A stretch of 8,468 nt of DNA from Lachnospiraceae bacterium UBA2868 (GTDB lineage: Bacteria > Bacillota_A > Clostridia > Lachnospirales > Lachnospiraceae), in the NCBI GenBank assembly GCA_002350465.1, contig DEEW01000070.1:1-8468 (forward strand), read 5' to 3'. The notes beneath the pieces were generated by a model that was not told the DNA's origin, made no database searches, and saw only the letters and a list, made by a program, of their open reading frames with translations. Positions within the stretch are counted from its first letter, which is position 1; every line of letters begins with the position of its first letter. Made by a program: the position numbers and the translations under genes. Shown piece by piece: positions 1 to 8,468 of this stretch.

Positions 1-223
1 AGTTTGCAAGTCCCTGTGTTGCCCGTCTTACCGTATATATGTTCATTCTGTTTGTTCCGGCACCGATGATGCCGCGAAGTCCGCCCGTACCGAATTCAAG
101 ATCTTTGTAAAATCTTTCCTTGATCTCATCATCGTTTCCCTCAATGGCCTTAAGCTCGGCCTTGGTGGCATCATCAAAATACTCGTCCTCACACCAGTAC
201 CGGTACTGTTCCATATAACTCAT
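1..223 (-). CDS. pgcA: Phosphoglucomutase/phosphomannomutase (phospho-sugar mutase), N-terminal 74 residues, cut by window edge
   Basis: Cytoplasmic alpha-D-phosphohexomutase that interconverts hexose 6-phosphate and hexose 1-phosphate, feeding nucleotide-sugar synthesis. The visible 74 residues start MSYMEQYRYW and contain the block FGTGGLRGIIGAG (about residues 44-56) followed by NRMNIYTVRRATQGLAN (58-74). This is the conserved N-terminal substrate-phosphate region of the Gram-positive PgcA-type mutases. The catalytic phosphoserine loop, metal-binding loop and C-terminal domain lie beyond the left edge, so activity and sugar preference cannot be judged. The start at 223 is supported by a perfect AGGAGG seven bases upstream; a second in-frame ATG at 214 is possible but further from that site. 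The gene follows the glycosyltransferase by 37 nt on the same strand, which fits a precursor-supply role for the polysaccharide locus, though such mutases also serve central metabolism. The family call is firm. The symbol is by analogy with the Bacillus gene. Confidence 0.9.
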   Translation of the reverse strand, partial: MSYMEQYRYWCEDEYFDDATKAELKAIEGNDDEIKERFYKDLEFGTGGLRGIIGAGTNRMNIYTVRRATQGLAN

Positions 224-260: not shown

Positions 261-2267
261 TTAGCCTACCATGCTCTTTGGGTTTCCCGCCAGAACAAAA
301 TTGGAATAATCCAGCGAAAAATTCGGATTAAAGTACGGATCTCCCTTATCAAGTTCCGCCCTCCACTTTTCTTTGAACAGATCACATTCTCTGTTGTATC
401 TTTCCGCATTCTGCCTGCTTGCCTCTTCGGTAACATCTGTCCCTCTTGATACGGACTCGTAATGGAACAGTTCCGCAAAGGGCGTAAATACATTAAGCAA
501 TCCTTTTTTTCTCAGCTTCAGGCAAAAATCAACGTCATTAAGCGCAACGGCAAGATCCTCCGACAGTCCTCCCACCTCATCAAACAGTTTCTTTTTAACC
601 ATAAGACATGCTCCGGTAACAGCGGATACATTTTGAGCATAGCAAAGCCTGCCCATATATCCGAGGTTCTCTTTCGCCATTTTGTAGTGGGAATGGCCTG
701 CGGTTCTGTGTGCCCCCATTCCGAGAACAATACCCGCGTGCTGTATCGTGTAATCGGGATAATAAAGCATGCATCCCACTGCCCCCACATCATCTCTCTG
801 GGCGTACATAAGGAGCTCCTCGATCCAGTTTCTCGTAATGACTTCCGTATCGTTGTTAAGGAGTATAATATACTCTCCCTCCGCAAAAGATGCTCCGAAA
901 TTATTCACCGCCGAATAGTTAAATTCGCCTTCATATGAGACAACCTTGATCCTCGGATGCATTTTGAGGGTTTCGTAATATTCTTTTATCTCATCTGTTA
1001 CAGAGTTGTTTTCGATTACTATGATCTCGTAATTATCATAGGATGTTCTGTCCGTAATTGACTCTATGCAGCGTCTGAGATCCTCTGTATGATCCTTGTT
1101 CGGTATAAGTATGGAAACGAGGGGATGGCCCGTAAGCGCATATCTTATCCTGAAAATAGTTTCAAAAGCTCTGGAGCTTTCGATCTTAAAACCGGAAAAT
1201 CCGCAAGCCGTAAGATGCGCGGCAACAGCTCCCTTAGCCGCATCTATCGCATAACTTTTTGCATTTATGTCGGATGCGACGCTTCCGGCATGAGAGCGCC
1301 AGTAGTAGAGTATCTTCGGCACATGGACTATATTTGTTGCGGCCTTTGTAAGTCTCAGTATCATATCGTGATCCTGGCTTCCGTCAAATTCGGTCCTGAA
1401 TGTTCCGCATTTATCAACCAGTTCCTTGGAAAAAACAGAGAAATGACATATATAGTTATTTGCTCTCAGATTATCGGGAGCAAAATCAGGCTTGAAATGA
1501 AGTGTGATCATATGATCGATGGACTTGCCCGAAAATGTAGTCTCATCGCAGTATATGTAGTCGGCACCCTTGTCGCATATGACTTTCATATACTCGTACA
1601 GCGCAGTCGGATGAAGGATATCATCATGATCAAACAGACCGATATAATCTCCCTTTGCCATTTCAAAGCACTTGTTCGTATTACCTGAAATCCCCAGATT
1701 CTCGGTCAGTCTTTCATATCTGATCCGGTCATCGCCGTACCCTTTTACTATCTGCTCAACATATGCATGATCGGCGTCCGAACCGTCGGCAAGGCATAAT
1801 TCCCAATTTTCATATGTCTGCGAAACAACCGAATCGATCATCTCCCGCAAAAATACTTCGGGAGTGTTATAAAGCGGTACAAGAATTGAAAACAGAATAT
1901 TCTTAGGAAAAACAGTTTCCTTCTGAGCCTTGATCTCCTCGGGAGTCGGCATGGAAAGAGTACCGTAACTCCTGTATGCTTTTCTTTCTATGATCTTGCT
2001 TATTATCTTCTTCTTAAGATTTGAAATACTTCCGTATCTTTTGATCCTGATAAACAGATTCTTTGTATGACTCCATGCAAGCCTTGCCGGATAAACCATT
2101 TTCCAGATCATTGAGTTGCGCAACTTATCCATTTTGTATGTAAGGTCTGCTGCTTTAGCTTCCGCATCTACAAGCTTTTCCGTAAGATCCGCGCATTTCT
2201 GGCGCTCCTTCTCATACAGATCCTTGTAGTATTCACTCGTCTTTAACAATTCCTCTTCGCGGTTCAT
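261..2267 (-). CDS. Tandem-domain GT2 glycosyltransferase with N-terminal coiled coil
   Basis: Predicted 668-residue cytoplasmic polysaccharide glycosyltransferase with two GT-A (GT2) catalytic domains. Residues about 4-54 are a heptad-rich charged helix, probably a coiled coil, followed by the NSMIWKMVYPAR block often seen at this place in such enzymes. Domain 1 (about 126-365) opens FSILVPLYNTPEVFLREMI, has the DXD-type motif as LFDHDD (211-216) and the acceptor-side motif QDHDMILRL (298-306). Domain 2 (about 383-640) opens PLVSILIPNKDH, has the DXD-equivalent LLNNDTE (469-475) and NDVDFCLKL (577-585). Both domains look catalytically complete, so the protein could add two successive sugars. 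There is no signal peptide or clear membrane span. ATG 2267 is preferred over an in-frame GTG at 2276 because a GGTGAT site sits just upstream of the ATG. The start overlaps the preceding gene by 35 nt. Sugar donor and acceptor cannot be read from sequence. Function class is firm, specificity unknown. Confidence 0.92.
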   Translation of the reverse strand: MNREEELLKTSEYYKDLYEKERQKCADLTEKLVDAEAKAADLTYKMDKLRNSMIWKMVYPARLAWSHTKNLFIRIKRYGSISNLKKKIISKIIERKAYRSYGTLSMPTPEEIKAQKETVFPKNILFSILVPLYNTPEVFLREMIDSVVSQTYENWELCLADGSDADHAYVEQIVKGYGDDRIRYERLTENLGISGNTNKCFEMAKGDYIGLFDHDDILHPTALYEYMKVICDKGADYIYCDETTFSGKSIDHMITLHFKPDFAPDNLRANNYICHFSVFSKELVDKCGTFRTEFDGSQDHDMILRLTKAATNIVHVPKILYYWRSHAGSVASDINAKSYAIDAAKGAVAAHLTACGFSGFKIESSRAFETIFRIRYALTGHPLVSILIPNKDHTEDLRRCIESITDRTSYDNYEIIVIENNSVTDEIKEYYETLKMHPRIKVVSYEGEFNYSAVNNFGASFAEGEYIILLNNDTEVITRNWIEELLMYAQRDDVGAVGCMLYYPDYTIQHAGIVLGMGAHRTAGHSHYKMAKENLGYMGRLCYAQNVSAVTGACLMVKKKLFDEVGGLSEDLAVALNDVDFCLKLRKKGLLNVFTPFAELFHYESVSRGTDVTEEASRQNAERYNRECDLFKEKWRAELDKGDPYFNPNFSLDYSNFVLAGNPKSMVG

Positions 2268-4287
2268 ATATATCACCCAGAGCCAGCCTGCTGCTCTTTA
2301 ATCCTGTTATCTTCCGGAGCAATACGCCGATACGGTAGCGGCGGTGAGGATCGATGGCGTCAAAGGGGATCCTGCATACAAAGCCCGCCAGATCAACATT
2401 TCTGGCATCGGGAAAAACTTCCCGTATATCACTCCTGTATTTTGAACTTGTCGTCACTATAATGCACTCTTTAAGCTCTTCATCGTATTCATCAAGCGGA
2501 ATGAGCACCACATATTTTCTGACAAGGGCATTGTCCCATGATTGATACAGCCCCCACCCCTCCAGGACATATGCGTCCTTTACATCGGATGAGATCGCTC
2601 TTTCGATCGTGCACAGATCCACGGACATCATTGCTTTGTCGCTCACTCTTCCGGGAATCTTGGTCAGCTCTTTTGTCTTGTTGCGCTTGTCGGTAATCTG
2701 ATACTCGGGAACAACTCCGCATTTTATCTCGATCGTATCGACATCCAGCTTATATCCGTAAAACGGATCAGGGTTCTTGACCATCCACGGATGAAGCGAG
2801 TACAGCATCCTGCGCTCTTCGCGCAGTCTCTCTGTCTTCTCGTCACTTAACGAATCCGCTCCCCTTGCAAGCGACTCATGATGAGTCATTACACACTCAT
2901 TGTTCACTACGTTGTAATAACCTGCTTCAAGAAGCTTAACACACAGATCGACGTCATTATAGCCGACCTTTATTTTATCACAAAAACCGCCTACTTGATA
3001 GTATTTTTCCCTGCCCACCATAAGGCACGCGCCTGTCACCGCCAGTACGTTCCATGCGAACCTGTTTCTGCAGTAATAATGCACCTGTGAGTCGGGAAGC
3101 CCTGCAAGCTTATGTGTCGGTCCCCGGTTAATATTCATCACTCCGATATGCTGTATCGAAACATCATCCGGATAGAGCAGTTTGGCTCCAACAGCGCCTA
3201 CATAACTTCTCGCCGCAAAAACCAGCAGTTTTCCCAAAAAGCCGTCCGTTATCGCATCCACATCGTCATTCATAAACAGCAAAAATCTTCCTCTGGCGGA
3301 TGCGGCCCCCTTATTACACATAGCGGAGTAATTAAACTCCTGGGGCTCGTATAGGTAGGTTCCTCTTCCTCCCGGAAGCTGTGTAACGTACTTATCGATA
3401 ATATCCCGGTTTTCTTCGCTGCTTCCGTTATCGACAACTATTATTTCATAGGGTATTTTCCCGGCATTTATCCTTATATTCCTTATGCATTCCTTGAGAA
3501 TGCGGGGCTGGTCCTTCGACGGGATTATTATGGACACAAGCGGAGCATCTTTTTGCGGCTGGGGTATTACGTTTATCCCCCGCCTCTTTTCCGCCGCCTC
3601 TTTGCAAAGGATATACCCGGGCTTTGTATAACGTTCATAGAGAGCTGCGTATATCTGCTCATCGGTTATCCCGTATACATCCTGAGATATTTCGGACAGA
3701 TCTCTGTGATACAGTATCCGCGGAACATGAACCACACTTTGCGCTCTCTCAAGTGCACGCAGCAAAAAATCACGGCATCTGACATTATCTCCGATCTCCG
3801 GAGAAGGTTTCATGGCCGGGACAAGTCTGGCAAATTTGGTCTTGATGGCAAAGCATGTCTCAATATAGGGAAATGATACGACCGTATCAGGTGAATAGTC
3901 CGGTTTTCTCCACGGTGTACGAAGTGTACGTATCCGTACATTAACATCGCTCAGATCAGCACCGGTGTCTGTTGTAAAGTCTTCATCGGGATATACGATA
4001 TCCGCACCCATTCCCTGCAAGGTCAGGCTGCGGACCATATCGGGCTCGCATACACCTCTTCTGTCCACAAAAATAACGTATTCTTCATTGATGCCTTCGA
4101 AATTAAGTATATTGGCATTATCATCAGGAAACAGTATTATCCTGCCGGAGGGTGCGGGATCCAAATTCTCTTTTTGATCCGCAGCGTCTCCCTCGCTCAT
4201 ATATGCCAGTTCATATGCATAAGGCATTGTCTGCTTGAAGCATTCTTCTTTATATGCAAGCAGTTGGTTATCTTTTGCAGCACTCAT
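2233..4287 (-). CDS. GT2 glycosyltransferase with one intact and one degenerate GT-A domain plus C-terminal beta-rich module
   Basis: Predicted 684-residue cytoplasmic glycosyltransferase. The intact GT2 domain spans about 248-510: it opens PLVSIIIPSKDQ, has the DXD-equivalent FMNDDVD (338-344), VTGACLMVG (417-425) and NDVDLCVKL (444-452), and closes near DPFYGYKL. The first 230 residues look like a shortened GT-A domain: VIFVDRRG (71-78) falls where the double-GT2 neighbour has YIGLFDHDD, and KPDYSP, CRDFLLRALE and VVHVPRILYH match its later landmarks, but the nucleotide-binding start and the DXD acids are missing. Residues about 553-675 form a separate beta-rich module with a GW motif (577-578), RSDIREVF and AGFVCRI, a pattern I associate with C-terminal modules of other Firmicutes polysaccharide enzymes; its role is unknown. 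The gene starts 10 nt after the methyltransferase gene with no good Shine-Dalgarno, suggesting translational coupling, and overlaps the next gene by 35 nt. Probably adds one sugar type; donor unknown. Confidence 0.9.
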   Translation of the reverse strand: MSAAKDNQLLAYKEECFKQTMPYAYELAYMSEGDAADQKENLDPAPSGRIILFPDDNANILNFEGINEEYVIFVDRRGVCEPDMVRSLTLQGMGADIVYPDEDFTTDTGADLSDVNVRIRTLRTPWRKPDYSPDTVVSFPYIETCFAIKTKFARLVPAMKPSPEIGDNVRCRDFLLRALERAQSVVHVPRILYHRDLSEISQDVYGITDEQIYAALYERYTKPGYILCKEAAEKRRGINVIPQPQKDAPLVSIIIPSKDQPRILKECIRNIRINAGKIPYEIIVVDNGSSEENRDIIDKYVTQLPGGRGTYLYEPQEFNYSAMCNKGAASARGRFLLFMNDDVDAITDGFLGKLLVFAARSYVGAVGAKLLYPDDVSIQHIGVMNINRGPTHKLAGLPDSQVHYYCRNRFAWNVLAVTGACLMVGREKYYQVGGFCDKIKVGYNDVDLCVKLLEAGYYNVVNNECVMTHHESLARGADSLSDEKTERLREERRMLYSLHPWMVKNPDPFYGYKLDVDTIEIKCGVVPEYQITDKRNKTKELTKIPGRVSDKAMMSVDLCTIERAISSDVKDAYVLEGWGLYQSWDNALVRKYVVLIPLDEYDEELKECIIVTTSSKYRSDIREVFPDARNVDLAGFVCRIPFDAIDPHRRYRIGVLLRKITGLKSSRLALGDIYEPRRGIVKDE
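2272..2277 (-). promoter_or_regulatory. Ribosome binding site inside the upstream gene that decides the double-GT2 start
   Basis: On the minus strand this reads GGTGAT, matching the 3' part of the extended Shine-Dalgarno consensus AGGAGGTGATC, four bases before the ATG at 2267. It lies within the coding sequence of the preceding glycosyltransferase, whose stop is at 2233. The alternative GTG at 2276 lies inside this site and has no comparable site of its own, so ATG 2267 is the better start. Translation is probably coupled to the upstream gene. Confidence 0.6.
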
Positions 4288-4297
4288 AACTTACAGA

Positions 4298-6631
4298 TCA
4301 TTCTGATTTTACCGGCTCAGCCCTTACAAAGCCTTCAGGCAGCGTATCTTCTTTGATGATCCCTGCCTTTCTCTTAAGGCGATAGGTAAACTCCTGTTTT
4401 TCCTCCAGCTTTCTTTGTGCCTCTTTCTTCAGTATACCAAGGATATCCTCATAGAACGGATCCTCTATCATGGAAATCCGGTATTTAACCTCAAGGGCTT
4501 TGGCATTTTGCGGAATTCCCTCGATTATTATCTGCGCATCGTTTGTATCGTAGATGAATGTGTTTTCGGAAACTTTATAACCGTTTACAATTATCTGTGC
4601 CACATCCTGTTTAAAACCATCGTTAAGGGAATACCGCAGTTTATCAATATGGAGCAGACATGGATATTCCGTAGGATCGATCCTGAGGGAATTAATATAC
4701 CTCTCGAAGGGTATCAGCATAGAAACACTTCCGTTATCGACGTCTCCTATCACGCTGATCTGATTATCCGGCGAAAAACTATTGCCTCTGGAAAAATAGA
4801 TCTTCGGCGTATCGAGATTCCGAAGGTAAGAACCGATCTTAACAATATTGTCAATCCTTATTGTAGTTGTCGGCATCAAAACCTGCATCACCTCAAGAGA
4901 TGCAGAGCCTCCTATGATATATACCTGGAAAGAATGTTCCATTTCACTAAACAGCATTCTTTCCCCTATATCGATGCCGCACAGGCTGTAAACATCCATT
5001 CCTTTTCTTGACAGATACATGGCAAACCCGTCATCGGTGCGGTTTCTGAAATGATAATAAAGAGCCCTGTATATCACGAACTGTATCGGGATCGCAAAAT
5101 CCCACACCCACTCATAATCAAGGACTGTCCAATTCCCTTTTTCCATTTGATCTTCATCAAGGACAATATTGGAAAAGATCATATCGAAATTACAGGGGTT
5201 AATAGCTGTATACCTTTTCTTGAACTCTCTTTTTCCGAACACCTCAACGAATCCCACAGAGCGCTTGAATTCAACCACATCGGTTAATGAATTAAGTTTT
5301 CTGCAATATTCCAGAATAACCGATTCCATCTGGGGGTACTTTCCGGCGGATTCGAGCTCATTCAGATAGTCCTCAAGGGTAATCCCGGACATATACTCAA
5401 ACCTTACGATATCTTTTGCCTTAGATGCGACCCCCGCCAGTGCCGTACCTCTTTCCCTGCCCTTCTGAAGGCTGCATTTTACAGGCACGAAGCCGGTATT
5501 GCCGTACTGCTCCAGCAGACGGTCATAATTAGTACTGAGTCTGTCGATATGCGGGTTTGCGTGAGTGGACAGTGCCAACTTAAATACCCGTTTTTCCCCT
5601 TCCGCATCCGTGTCTATAACCGTGCAGACCCTGAATGCCTCCATACGCTCGTTGCCGTACTTGGCATAAACAGGAAGGCTCATCCGGCTCTGCCAGCCCT
5701 CCTGCGGTGACGCCAGAACAATAAAGGAGTTGGCATAATCAGCGAAACACCCCTCTTCAATCATGGCATCAAAAGCCTTGGTTTCATCGAACAGAACAAG
5801 CCTGTCATCATCAAAATTGCGGATATTTGTATTTAGATCCCCCGGACCCGGGAGTCTGTCATCGGAATAGATCGTATGAGGAAGCTTATAATCGGGGTAG
5901 GGATAATAAAACCTTGAATCCTTGTAGCCCGTATCCTCAAGAAGCCGCATAAGGCTTGACTTTGAAAAGGTTTTTACCGGAGAATCTATCGGATATCCTT
6001 CTATTCCCCCGAAAAAGGTTCCCAGATGATCTTCCTTGCAGCCCGCAAAATACTTCATTCCCAACCGGTTTTCAATAGCTATTACTATCTTTCCTCCGGG
6101 CGCCAGATGCTCTTTGAGGATTTCCAGAAATGCATTATATGGTTTGTCGGCTTTGATATAGGAGGCTGCATATTCAAGTACTCCTATGAGTGTAATATAG
6201 TCGTACTTTTCGGTAAGCCCCTTCTCGACATCTTCAAAATTGCCGACCATTATGTTTACATTATCATACTCTTTGTTTCTGTATGCATTGATCAGGCTTC
6301 GTTTTTTTGAAAGTTCAACGCAGGTTACGCTTTTTGCCAGCCTTGCAAGAACGCCCGTAACGGCTCCGCATCCGCTTCCGATCTCAAGAACCTTGTCGGA
6401 TCTCTTTATGGGGATCCATCCCACCACATTTTCCCTTATGTATGACAGATGATACATAACGGACCATGATCTTGATTCCTGTATATAATGCTCATAGTCA
6501 AGGGAGGTATGATTTTTGACATAATCAAGTAACCTGTCCTCCGCAGCTCCCTCGCTGTACAGATCTTCTCCCGTATAATATGTGTAATCAACGACCACGC
6601 TTCCTATTTGGTCATAATTGGTGTAAGGCAT
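4298..6631 (-). CDS. Multidomain SAM methyltransferase with kinase-like domain; candidate WbdD-like polysaccharide chain terminator
   Basis: Predicted 777-residue cytoplasmic protein. Residues about 50-310 form a class I SAM methyltransferase: motif I VLEIGSGCG (81-89), post-I VTCVELS (102-108), motif II YDYITLIGVLEY (143-154), LAPGGK (176-181), then the block AIENRLGMKYFAG (185-197). Residues about 320-530 resemble a protein-kinase/APH fold: a strand lysine in RVFKLAL (K351), YMSGITLEDYL as a hinge-like segment (413-423), FDMIFSNIVL with D483 and N488 spaced as in the D-x4-N catalytic loop, and LDYEW (504-508) in place of DFG/DFE. Residues about 563-725 are beta-rich and unassigned, and 729-756 is a short charged helix, probably coiled coil. 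By analogy with E. coli WbdD, which phosphorylates and methylates the chain end, it may cap the exported glycan; internal glycan methylation is the main alternative. ATG 6631 with GGGGAAG upstream is preferred over an in-frame TTG at 6652 that would overlap wzt. The methyltransferase call is firm; the kinase-like and capping roles are inference. Confidence 0.88.
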   Translation of the reverse strand: MPYTNYDQIGSVVVDYTYYTGEDLYSEGAAEDRLLDYVKNHTSLDYEHYIQESRSWSVMYHLSYIRENVVGWIPIKRSDKVLEIGSGCGAVTGVLARLAKSVTCVELSKKRSLINAYRNKEYDNVNIMVGNFEDVEKGLTEKYDYITLIGVLEYAASYIKADKPYNAFLEILKEHLAPGGKIVIAIENRLGMKYFAGCKEDHLGTFFGGIEGYPIDSPVKTFSKSSLMRLLEDTGYKDSRFYYPYPDYKLPHTIYSDDRLPGPGDLNTNIRNFDDDRLVLFDETKAFDAMIEEGCFADYANSFIVLASPQEGWQSRMSLPVYAKYGNERMEAFRVCTVIDTDAEGEKRVFKLALSTHANPHIDRLSTNYDRLLEQYGNTGFVPVKCSLQKGRERGTALAGVASKAKDIVRFEYMSGITLEDYLNELESAGKYPQMESVILEYCRKLNSLTDVVEFKRSVGFVEVFGKREFKKRYTAINPCNFDMIFSNIVLDEDQMEKGNWTVLDYEWVWDFAIPIQFVIYRALYYHFRNRTDDGFAMYLSRKGMDVYSLCGIDIGERMLFSEMEHSFQVYIIGGSASLEVMQVLMPTTTIRIDNIVKIGSYLRNLDTPKIYFSRGNSFSPDNQISVIGDVDNGSVSMLIPFERYINSLRIDPTEYPCLLHIDKLRYSLNDGFKQDVAQIIVNGYKVSENTFIYDTNDAQIIIEGIPQNAKALEVKYRISMIEDPFYEDILGILKKEAQRKLEEKQEFTYRLKRKAGIIKEDTLPEGFVRAEPVKSE

Positions 6632-6635
6632 AATT

Positions 6636-6642
6636 CTTCCCC
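6636..6642 (-). promoter_or_regulatory. Ribosome binding site choosing the methyltransferase start
   Basis: The minus strand reads GGGGAAG here, a purine-rich Shine-Dalgarno-like site four bases before the ATG at 6631 (six bases counted from its GGGGA core). It supports that ATG over the longer in-frame TTG start at 6652, which would add seven residues and overlap the end of the ATPase gene. Confidence 0.55.
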
Positions 6643-6648
6643 GGTATT

Positions 6649-7989
6649 TCAAGCTTTAGTAACAATAACCGTCGAGTTCATGTCATAGAACCCGGTAGTA
6701 TTTTTCGACGAAATGACTGTCAGGTTAAAAACATCATACAGTCTGTGATAAACGGTAAAGTTTCCTTCTCTGTATCCCACGCATCCGAGAGATATAAGGT
6801 ACTCTCCTCCCTGAAGCGACATATTCTGGGTAAAGGTCACTATATATTCACTTCCGGCTTCGCATACACCGGTAGTTATTTTCTCAAACATGGTATTGGT
6901 GCCAGTTATCTCGGTTCCCTGCATGTTTTTAAAGGACAGGGCAAATATGGGATCCTGTATCGTTTCAAAGAAACGCACTTTAACCTTAACGGTAAAATCA
7001 TCGCCTTTGATTATTGTATTTGTGATGGTACCGCTGTTATCATATGCACAATAATCCTCGAACTCGGCAAGCCCGCTTCCGTATGCGTCAACATTCGGGT
7101 TAAGCTGCATAAGGTCTTTCCACTTCGATCCGCTTAAATCCTGCTGGCTTTTATTTGTATCTGCTGTCCGATCGAGCTGTCCCACAAGTACTTTCTTGTA
7201 CATATCGATGATCTCTTTGGGCTCACCCTCGCCTATCTTGTGACCCTTTTCAAGCAGTATCACCCTGTCACAGTATTTGCTGATGCTCCCGAGATCATGG
7301 CTGACAAACAGTATGGTTTTTCCCTGCTTCTTAAAATCCTCAAACTTTCTGTAACACTTGTTCTGGAAGAAAACATCTCCTACGGAAAGTGCCTCGTCCA
7401 CTATAAGTATCTCCGGATCGATATTGATCGCTACCGCAAAGGCAAGACGCACAAACATACCGCTCGAATATGTTTTAACCTTCTGATATACAAAATCCCC
7501 TATGTCGGCAAACTCAAGTATGGATTCAAGCTTGCTGTCTATCTCCTTTTCCGAAAAGCCGAGCATGGTGCCGTTAAGGTAAATGTTCTCTATTCCGGTA
7601 AACTCCATGTTAAAACCGGCTCCAAGCTCCAAAAGTGCCGATATACGTCCGTTTATGTCGAGATTTCCGGCAGAAGGCGAAAGCACCCCGGTTATGATTT
7701 TCAGAATAGTTGATTTTCCGGACCCGTTTGTACCGATTATGCCGACAGTCTCGCCCTTATATACCTCAAAATTAACATCATCAAGGGCATAATGCTCCCT
7801 GCAGTGGATATTCTTCCCGATATGCAGTGCTTCCTTGAGCCTGTCCCTGTTTCTGTCATAAAGCTTGTATATCTTCGATACATGGTCAACCTTTATAGCG
7901 ACCTCATCGGATATTTTGCCCGCTCTTATGTGGTCGGTATGCATCGTTTCGCTGTTCGGTTTTTCAATCTGTTCCAGAAAATCGCCCAT
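6649..7989 (-). CDS. wzt: Polysaccharide ABC transporter ATPase with C-terminal glycan-recognition domain (Wzt type)
   Basis: Cytoplasmic ATPase (446 residues) that powers export of a lipid-linked polysaccharide through the Wzm-type permease encoded just upstream. The nucleotide-binding domain spans about 30-265: Walker A GTNGSGKST (86-94), a signature in the YSSGM form (174-178) typical of Wzt/TagH proteins rather than LSGGQ, Walker B ILIVDEAL (194-201) with catalytic E199, and the H-loop SHDLGS with H231. Residues about 300-446 form an extra beta-rich domain (GSGLAEFED, then alternating strands to the C-terminus) that matches the position and pattern of the Wzt C-terminal domain. In characterised E. 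coli O8/O9a systems this domain binds the capped non-reducing end of the chain and gates export; that role here is inferred. The start at 7989 is supported by AGGA about seven bases upstream. The gene lies 8 nt after the permease stop and ends 17 nt before the methyltransferase. TagH-like teichoic acid exporters are the nearest alternative. Confidence 0.93.
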   Translation of the reverse strand: MGDFLEQIEKPNSETMHTDHIRAGKISDEVAIKVDHVSKIYKLYDRNRDRLKEALHIGKNIHCREHYALDDVNFEVYKGETVGIIGTNGSGKSTILKIITGVLSPSAGNLDINGRISALLELGAGFNMEFTGIENIYLNGTMLGFSEKEIDSKLESILEFADIGDFVYQKVKTYSSGMFVRLAFAVAINIDPEILIVDEALSVGDVFFQNKCYRKFEDFKKQGKTILFVSHDLGSISKYCDRVILLEKGHKIGEGEPKEIIDMYKKVLVGQLDRTADTNKSQQDLSGSKWKDLMQLNPNVDAYGSGLAEFEDYCAYDNSGTITNTIIKGDDFTVKVKVRFFETIQDPIFALSFKNMQGTEITGTNTMFEKITTGVCEAGSEYIVTFTQNMSLQGGEYLISLGCVGYREGNFTVYHRLYDVFNLTVISSKNTTGFYDMNSTVIVTKA

Positions 7990-7993
7990 AAAT

Positions 7994-7999
7994 AATCCT
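7994..7999 (-). promoter_or_regulatory. Ribosome binding site of the ATPase, overlapping the permease stop codon
   Basis: The minus strand reads TAGGAT at the permease TAG stop, placing an AGGA Shine-Dalgarno core about seven bases before the ATPase ATG at 7989. The overlap of the stop and ribosome binding site suggests coupled translation of the two transporter subunits. Confidence 0.6.
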
Positions 8000-8468
8000 A
8001 TAATACATCCGCAAAATGAATTTTCAGACGCTTAAAAATAATGGCGCCAAAGGCAAATACGCACATGGTAAGTATCCAGAAATATGCGGTTGAATAGAAA
8101 TTCTCCCAAAACCATATCTTATCTATCAGAGAGTCCCTGTAGCCTTCTACAATGTAGTTCATCGGATTAAGCTTAAATATGATCCGAAGCCGCGGGGACA
8201 ATGTGGTTATATTCCACAGAATGGGGGTTGCCCATATTCCTACCTGAAGTGCAATGGAAATAATCTGTCCCAGGTCTCTGAAGAAAATAATTATGGAGCA
8301 TGTTATGTAGCAAAGCCCCAGGACAAATACGAACATGCAAGCACTGTAGTAGAAAATCTGCAACGTATACAGATCCGGATAATATCCGTAGCATGCAAAC
8401 AATCCCACCGTAAACAGCAGGAAAAATCCGTGAACAAAAAGGGCGGATATTATTTTTATGATAGGAAG
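7998..8468 (-). CDS. wzm: ABC-2 type polysaccharide export permease (Wzm/TagG type), C-terminal 156 residues, cut by window edge
   Basis: Integral membrane channel of an ABC exporter for lipid-linked polysaccharide. The reading frame is open to the right edge (first visible residues LPIIKIISALFVHGF), so the N-terminal part, probably about 100 residues by family length, is missing. Visible hydrophobic segments lie at about residues 5-27, 37-61, 67-87 and 127-146 of the fragment. Between them are the family landmarks FFRDLGQI (62-69), IWATPILWN (78-86) and NPMNYIVEGYR (101-111), typical of ABC-2 permeases of capsule, O-antigen and teichoic acid export. The protein ends KRLKIHFADVL. The stop at 7998 is followed 8 nt later by the ATPase start, whose Shine-Dalgarno overlaps the stop codon, so the two subunits are probably made together. 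An internal GTG at 8408 is a valine codon within a membrane segment, not a start. Confidence 0.93.
   Translation of the reverse strand, partial: LPIIKIISALFVHGFFLLFTVGLFACYGYYPDLYTLQIFYYSACMFVFVLGLCYITCSIIIFFRDLGQIISIALQVGIWATPILWNITTLSPRLRIIFKLNPMNYIVEGYRDSLIDKIWFWENFYSTAYFWILTMCVFAFGAIIFKRLKIHFADVL

Follow-up and report, generated by a model that had tools for sequence, protein, structure and literature searches.

Gene content of the locus

We analyzed an 8,468-nt stretch of DNA from Lachnospiraceae bacterium UBA2868 (here, the window), in which the analyzed genes all lie on the minus strand. Our subject is a gene for a 777-amino-acid (aa) protein, proposed to be a chain terminator, and its neighbors, which encode the ATP-binding cassette (ABC) transporter components Wzm and Wzt and two GT2 glycosyltransferases, here called GTA and GTB (Table 1). 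The original prediction for this DNA, made from the sequence alone, had the gene order and coordinates right, and Pfam names the permease, the ATPase with its Wzt_C domain, the methyltransferase, and the GT2 domains.

Table 1. Positions of genes, domains, and candidate residues in the window
Feature	Positions	Strand	Basis
Phosphoglucomutase-like gene, start only	2..223	-	Named by eye, without a library run
GTB, double GT2 glycosyltransferase	261..2276	-	Pfam GT2 domains
SMIWKMVYPAR motif after the charged N-terminus of GTB; candidate coil and membrane-anchor module	2082..2114	-	Hand-made regular expression, without a coil program
GTA, GT2 glycosyltransferase, 684 aa	2233..4287	-	Pfam Glycos_transf_2
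Methyltransferase-kinase-beta-domain protein, 777 aa, proposed chain terminator	4298..6631	-	Pfam, model, HHalign
Beta-rich C-terminal domain, residues 590-777	4301..4864	-	HHalign probability 91.2, E 9.7e-7 to the post-kinase domain of the O7-type family
Terminal helices, residues 724-745 and 748-755 (the "coiled coil" of the original prediction)	4367..4462	-	Secondary structure of the full model
Aminoglycoside-phosphotransferase (APH)-like kinase domain, residues 312-588	4868..5698	-	
D505, candidate Asp of the DFG-equivalent D-Y-E-W motif	5117..5119	-	Invariant in 81/81 sequences
N488, candidate metal-binding Asn	5168..5170	-	Invariant in 81/81 sequences
D483, candidate catalytic Asp	5183..5185	-	Invariant in 81/81 sequences; aligns with the Asp of the O7-type family
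K351, candidate ATP-binding Lys	5579..5581	-	Invariant in 81/81 sequences
S-adenosylmethionine (SAM)-dependent methyltransferase domain, residues 1-311	5699..6631	-	Pfam methyltransferase domains at about residues 75-237
Wzt ATPase, 446 aa, with C-terminal carbohydrate-binding domain	6649..7989	-	Pfam ABC_tran, 82.5 bits, and Wzt_C, both above cut-off
Wzt_C cap-binding domain, residues 301-437	6679..7089	-	Pfam, 139 bits (cut-off 30.4)
R416-L-Y418-D419, at the site equivalent to the cap-lid residue Trp362 of Aquifex	6733..6744	-	Alignment
Wzm-like permease of an ABC-2 polysaccharide exporter, truncated at its 5' end by the window edge	7998..8468	-	Pfam ABC2_membrane, 29.4 bits (fragment)

For comparison, we used 80 loci from relatives, the best 80 of 560 confirmed, which were found by methyltransferase peptides in a scan of species genomes and are biased toward close relatives. 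One of them, L004, encodes a homolog of the 777-aa protein at 94% identity in a gene order identical to that of the window, and it contains complete versions of the two genes cut by the window ends, a 327-aa Wzm-like permease (4361-5344) and a 575-aa phosphoglucomutase-like protein (13136-14863). Because most of the relatives bear the name Lachnospiraceae (the others include Clostridium, Eubacterium, and unplaced Clostridia) and L004 shares both sequence and gene order, the host of the window, a gut or rumen bacterium, is probably Gram-positive, as the original prediction had supposed.

The 777-aa protein and its family

Neither Pfam nor NCBIfam names the domain that follows the methyltransferase. 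A model of residues 312-584 (pLDDT 90.7) matches aminoglycoside phosphotransferases in structure searches, and the domain contains four invariant candidate catalytic residues (K351, D483, N488, and D505), which are kept also where the kinase is a separate open reading frame (ORF). Fold and residues together bear out the kinase-like domain that had been proposed from the sequence. The protein had also been said to end in a coiled coil, a detail that is weak: in the full model, read without a coiled-coil program, the C-terminus consists only of helices of 22 and 8 residues, and no long coil is seen.

ORF6-O7 of Klebsiella pneumoniae, whose N-terminal part is the O7 terminator, comprises a methyltransferase, a previously unannotated APH-like kinase, a carbohydrate-binding module (CBM), a coil, and two GT2 modules, and its product, a 3-O-methylphosphate on the terminal rhamnose, was shown in vitro with a D441A kinase-dead control (PMC11231755). 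The orthologs named in that article come from alpha- and gammaproteobacteria and cyanobacteria, all of those named carry the coil, and the terms Firmicutes, Bacillota, and Clostridi are absent from its main text. A tblastn search of plasmids yielded two relatives from Gram-negatives, with matches that cover 45% and 37% of the query, and both adjoin a permease and an ATPase. We made the O7 comparison through a Pseudomonas relative, P0124, as a stand-in for the ORF6-O7 sequence. P0124 has the six SAM-site residues given for O7 (Y28, Y66, G91, G93, E112, and Y158; PMC11231755) at identical numbers, and its kinase Asp is offset from D441 by two positions. By way of P0124, Y25, Y60, G85, G87, E106, and Y154 of the window protein align with these six residues, which are kept in all 122 family rows (P0124, 120 listed of 749 hits, and a Citrobacter protein).

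Similarity to the O7-type family is seen in three domains of the protein and in GTB. The methyltransferase matches the family with an HHalign E of 1.2e-62 and is 37% identical to P0124 over 294 aligned positions, and the kinase matches with an HHalign probability of 97.2 (E 3.4e-11). The beta-rich domain matches the post-kinase domain, which is the CBM in O7 (Table 1); this indicates homology only. Residues 128-667 of GTB are 41% identical to the C-terminal half of P0124 over 550 aligned positions. Judged by these alignments, the 777-aa protein matches an O7-type methyltransferase-kinase terminator. Because the methyltransferase, the kinase, the beta-rich domain, and GTB all have homology to this family, we regard the system as probably an O7-type terminator/polymerase that is split into two proteins, with a GT2 gene between them and a possible ruler coil on the polymerase half.

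A further relative of the 777-aa protein is encoded in a Citrobacter braakii plasmid cluster beside rfb genes (L083, 7944-9893). Its motif reads EREW instead of DYEW, its C-terminus is coil-like, and its kinase-like domain may be inactive.

The original prediction had likened the protein to Escherichia coli WbdD and proposed a WbdD-like coupling of capping and export. In a sequence test, orthology of the kinase to WbdD was rejected (HHalign probability 1.7%, E 0.03, against WbdD residues 211-460; 0.5% in another comparison). The match between the methyltransferases is generic and weak, and the WbdD residues His132-His133 (PMC3482155) align with E153-Y154 of the 777-aa protein. Whole-model Foldseek searches do list WbdD (ranks 4, 5, 7, and 11, over 536-614 aligned columns), yet the superposition is poor (root mean square deviation 15-19, TM ≤0.29). 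WbdD was not among the best 50 matches of each of the kinase-only Foldseek and VIA searches, which excludes nothing, and it was not among the best 60 of 68 matches up to E 10 in a PDB sequence search with profile A1. A true WbdD ortholog transferred from Gram-negatives would account for the Foldseek ranks, for a gene order that is the same as in E. coli HS O9, and for the 37% identity of the window Wzt to the E. coli O9 Wzt over 435 aligned positions. Given the poor superposition, the kinases unrelated by profile, the generic methyltransferase match, the missing His pair, and the lack of a long coil in the model, we consider this origin extremely unlikely. What stands of the WbdD comparison is the principle of capping-export coupling, through domain content, synteny, and the Wzt lid motif described below; membership of the WbdD family does not stand.

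The N-terminus of GTB, which is charged and followed by a candidate coil and anchor motif (Table 1), is a candidate for length control. A hand-made regular expression for the coil end and anchor matched the window GTB, 16 of the 75 GTB proteins that stand alone, 7 of the 9 kinases that do so, and one of two full fusions. It had no match among four kinase-GTB fusions or 64 two-domain methyltransferase-kinases, nor in WbdD or P0124. Because its matches are so uneven, this expression is weak evidence for a coil/anchor module. Homology of the GTB N-terminus to the WbdD coil was also considered and rejected, as BLASTP gave no match.

A kinase is present in all 80 loci, in one ORF with the methyltransferase in 67 and in a neighboring ORF in 13 (L024, L028, L032, L042, L048, L051, L053, L057, L059, L060, L062, L064, and L078). 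In addition, the kinase is fused to the double GT2 in four loci, and methyltransferase, kinase, and double GT2 form one ORF in two. The 67 include L065, where a single ORF (8582-12091) also takes in Wzt; because it has many ambiguous residues, we do not claim it as a real Wzt-methyltransferase-kinase fusion. In all 13 split loci, the kinase ORF is in frame with the methyltransferase; the frames from wzt to methyltransferase are mixed (23/30/23). A single stop codon (TAA, TAG, or TGA) separates the two ORFs in eight split loci, and the other five have an additional in-frame stop, so readthrough cannot be the general cause of the split. Together with four changes of fused or split state on the kinase tree, this pattern suggests repeated fission or refusion via stop codons, or readthrough in some loci. 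The kinase ORFs of four split loci (L042, L057, L064, and L078) are 1406-1419 aa long, and that of L042 comprises a beta domain, a long coil-like stretch, an STCWKFTAPLR motif, and a large further C-terminal part.

Since methyltransferase and kinase are separate ORFs in 13 loci, the two activities need not share one chain. This would suit a phosphate cap other than a simple methyl phosphate, such as a 2,3-cyclic phosphate of rhamnose or methyl and phosphate groups on different hydroxyls, still read by Wzt. The S-layer glycan of Clostridioides difficile SLCT-11 has a 2,3-cyclophosphoryl-rhamnose end, and its presumed exporter is an ABC transporter (PMC6254364). We nevertheless hold such a cap to be rather unlikely, as the methyltransferase accompanies the kinase in every locus (in a sample found by methyltransferase peptides) and the characterized O7 homolog makes methyl phosphate (PMC11231755).

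Pairing with Wzt and the cap-lid motif

In 77 of the 80 loci, a Wzt with a Wzt_C domain precedes the methyltransferase or shares an ORF with it, an arrangement far beyond chance. Of these, 72 have it immediately upstream, 70 as counted by script and two (L015 and L031, where extended ORF starts overlapped wzt) as judged by eye; L065 has it in one ORF, and in four (L026, L038, L063, and L074) it is upstream but non-adjacent. The three loci with no Wzt upstream (L029, L033, and L067) all end at a contig edge. With contig-edge loci included, the upstream genes are Wzm-like in 73 loci, RmlC-like in 63, and RmlA-like in 52.

We also surveyed 100 genomes drawn from the family of genome G001, a sample independent of the enzyme. 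Wzt_C was found in 59 genomes and the kinase in 47, and 45 genomes hold both, compared to 27.7 expected (hypergeometric P 1.3e-13, kinship ignored). In 44 of the 47 kinase genomes (exceptions G015, G068, and G106), Wzt_C lies upstream of the kinase within 8 kb on the same strand. Considering all 67 Wzt_C places together, the 44 followed by a kinase score at least 134.3 bits, and 22 of the other 23 score at most 119.9 bits; the remaining one, at 141.2 bits, is in G106, which has a kinase on another contig. In the phylum at large, matches were found in 9 of 398 genomes, in three of them weak ones only.

The extra C-terminal domain that the original prediction gave to the ATPase is Wzt_C by Pfam (Table 1), and the window Wzt matches that of Aquifex aeolicus (8dku) with an E of 8.5e-81 over residues 32-426. 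In Aquifex Wzt, Trp362 is the lid of the methyl pocket (PMC9445017); chain positions in our alignment are one higher than the published numbers by hand count. By this alignment, the window Wzt lacks counterparts of His350 and His355 of the Aquifex pocket, and an R-x-Y-D motif occupies the lid position. All 75 Wzts compared (the window and 74 loci) have Arg416 and Tyr418, and R-x-Y-D/E is present in 74 of these 75 kinase-linked proteins. We then read the Wzt_C domains of 20 of the 23 unlinked places in the family survey. The motif occurs in that of G106, a kinase genome, and in none of the 19 that have no kinase beside them, some of which come from genomes with a kinase-linked copy elsewhere. 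A second class of Wzt_C in the family (G060, G041, G013, G024, G084, G100, and others) scores at most 120 bits, has no adjoining kinase, and shows R-x-Y-D in 0 of 19 domains read.

The motif extends to Wzts of E. coli O9 and O99, both of which have a WbdD-type kinase, and of the Citrobacter and Pseudomonas relatives. Trp stands at the lid position in O8 (which has a 425-aa methyltransferase and no kinase), O60, and Aquifex. The SMS-3-5 ATPase (741 bases) is too short for a Wzt_C domain and was excluded from this comparison. Two kinases unrelated in sequence thus go with one reader motif, which suggests that the motif reflects the cap and not a common capping enzyme, and we infer from the domain, the synteny, and the motif that the C-terminal domain of Wzt recognizes the cap.

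Two alternatives can be weighed against these data. In the first, the kinase has degenerated into a regulatory or structural domain, leaving a methyl-only cap; the failure of Pfam and NCBIfam to recognize the kinase and the replacement of one catalytic Asp by Glu in the Citrobacter relative would fit. We judge it highly improbable, given the four invariant residues, present in stand-alone kinases as well, and given the Trp, in place of Arg, at the lid of the methyl-only O8 reader. In the second, the enzyme adds phosphate and methyl groups to sugars of a precursor or inside the chain, and Wzt_C recognizes something else, which would agree with the lack of a long ruler coil on the enzyme. The near-constant pairing with Wzt_C, the matching lid motif, and the O7 precedent make this distinctly unlikely.

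Several other genes accompany the locus in L004. Upstream are rmlA-like, GH25-like, and rmlC-like genes (named by eye); the product of the second, an 869-aa protein encoded at 1187-3796 between the rml-like genes, resembles a GH25 muramidase in its C-terminal part (a label given by sequence reading) and has matches in 41 of the 80 loci. Downstream of the phosphoglucomutase-like gene, 14805-18515 encodes a multi-pass membrane protein, a GtrA-like protein, an SGNH-like lipoprotein, and a DPM1-like GT2 (named by reading), a set suggestive of an extracytoplasmic decoration system.

Proposed mechanism and comparison with known systems

We propose that the locus probably directs ABC-transporter-dependent synthesis and export of a wall polysaccharide, likely containing rhamnose to judge from the neighboring rml-like genes, whose chain is ended by a phosphate and methyl cap that Wzt reads. 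GTA and GTB would lengthen the chain on a cytosolic lipid carrier, as expected from their family. The APH-like kinase would phosphorylate a hydroxyl of the non-reducing terminal sugar (the rhamnose 3-OH in O7), in keeping with O7 homology and the conserved residues, and the methyltransferase would then methylate that phosphate, giving a putative methyl-phosphate product. The C-terminal domain of Wzt would bind the capped end, with R-x-Y-D where an O-methyl-cap reader has its Trp lid, and binding would license export through Wzm, as in the family. This proposal draws on domains, homology, conserved candidate residues, synteny, and motif correlation, from which we infer the substrate, the order of reactions, the product, recognition by Wzt, and the identity of the glycan.

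Several points weigh against the proposal. The motif split among Wzts could follow Wzt ancestry, not chemistry, and the lid rule takes in O99 and O60 by sequence rather than by cap chemistry. The apparent tie to O7 depends on a Pseudomonas stand-in, on six residue numbers, and on an Asp two positions off D441, and the coil carried by all the orthologs named in PMC11231755 is not seen on the 777-aa protein. In addition, the Citrobacter relative has Glu for Asp in its EREW motif and the kinase profile barely detects its kinase region, yet its Wzt has R-x-Y-D.

More tentatively, and with somewhat less than even confidence, we suggest that many Lachnospiraceae share a quality-controlled export of a rhamnose-containing wall glycan with a phosphate(-methyl) cap, by means of a split O7-type terminator and a ruler coil on the polymerase, and that the Wzt lid is a portable code, in which Trp denotes O-methyl caps and Arg-x-Tyr-Asp phosphate caps, used with two kinases unrelated in sequence. 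If so, cap chemistry would be predictable from the Wzt sequence alone, the lid rule serving as a sequence test. Moreover, almost half of the sampled genomes (47 of 100) of a major gut family would control the length and export of a surface glycan by an end mark known mainly from Gram-negative O antigens. Wall glycans of Lachnospiraceae matter to the host; for example, Ruminococcus gnavus glucorhamnans induce cytokines (PMC12413058).

A possible coupling of capping and export in Gram-positives is an already known idea. It was proposed for the Geobacillus S-layer with WsaE (PMC2943079), and it is discussed for the C. difficile SLCT-11 glycan, which has a phosphate-bearing non-reducing end (PMC6254364). 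As far as the open-licence literature shows, what is new here is the O7-type kinase-methyltransferase as a common Lachnospiraceae system and its split architecture; we recognized no account of an O7-type terminator system in Lachnospiraceae in that literature, which is not proof of absence. We also count the apparent lid-motif correlation as new, no print search having been made for the Trp/Arg lid rule.

Compared to these systems, the window combines shared and distinct features. As in Geobacillus, a Gram-positive host has a methyltransferase adjoining wzm-wzt, with rhamnosyltransferases and a proposed role in termination in the case of WsaE; unlike the window enzyme, WsaE is a methyltransferase fused to two GT domains, with no kinase named in PMC2943079, and it acts on an S-layer protein glycan with a 2-O-methyl cap. 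SLCT-11 likewise involves a Gram-positive host, an ABC transporter, and a rhamnose-rich glycan with a phosphate-bearing non-reducing end, but its phosphate is cyclic, and the words methyltransferase and kinase are absent from the main text of PMC6254364. E. coli O9/O9a (PMC3482155; L081) shares the order wzm-wzt-capping enzyme-glycosyltransferase, a methyltransferase followed by a kinase, and a proposed role in termination and export; the window kinase has no detectable sequence relation to that of WbdD, the methyltransferase active-site residues differ, and the long C-terminal coil and trimer are WbdD features. The window Wzt has a nucleotide-binding domain and Wzt_C, like those of E. coli O9 and A. 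aeolicus (2r5o, 8dku), and shares R-x-Y-D with O9 only, the Aquifex reader of 3-O-methyl caps having Trp at the lid. From K. pneumoniae O7 (PMC11231755), the window differs in its Gram-positive host, in having the polymerase GT2 pair as a protein of its own with a further GT2 gene intervening, and, as from the O7-type orthologs, in that no long coil is seen on the terminator model. It resembles O7 in its collinear methyltransferase, APH-like kinase, and beta/CBM domain, in the SAM-site residues and catalytic Asp aligned through P0124, in its double GT2 partner, and in the probable export of a rhamnose-containing glycan by an ABC transporter.

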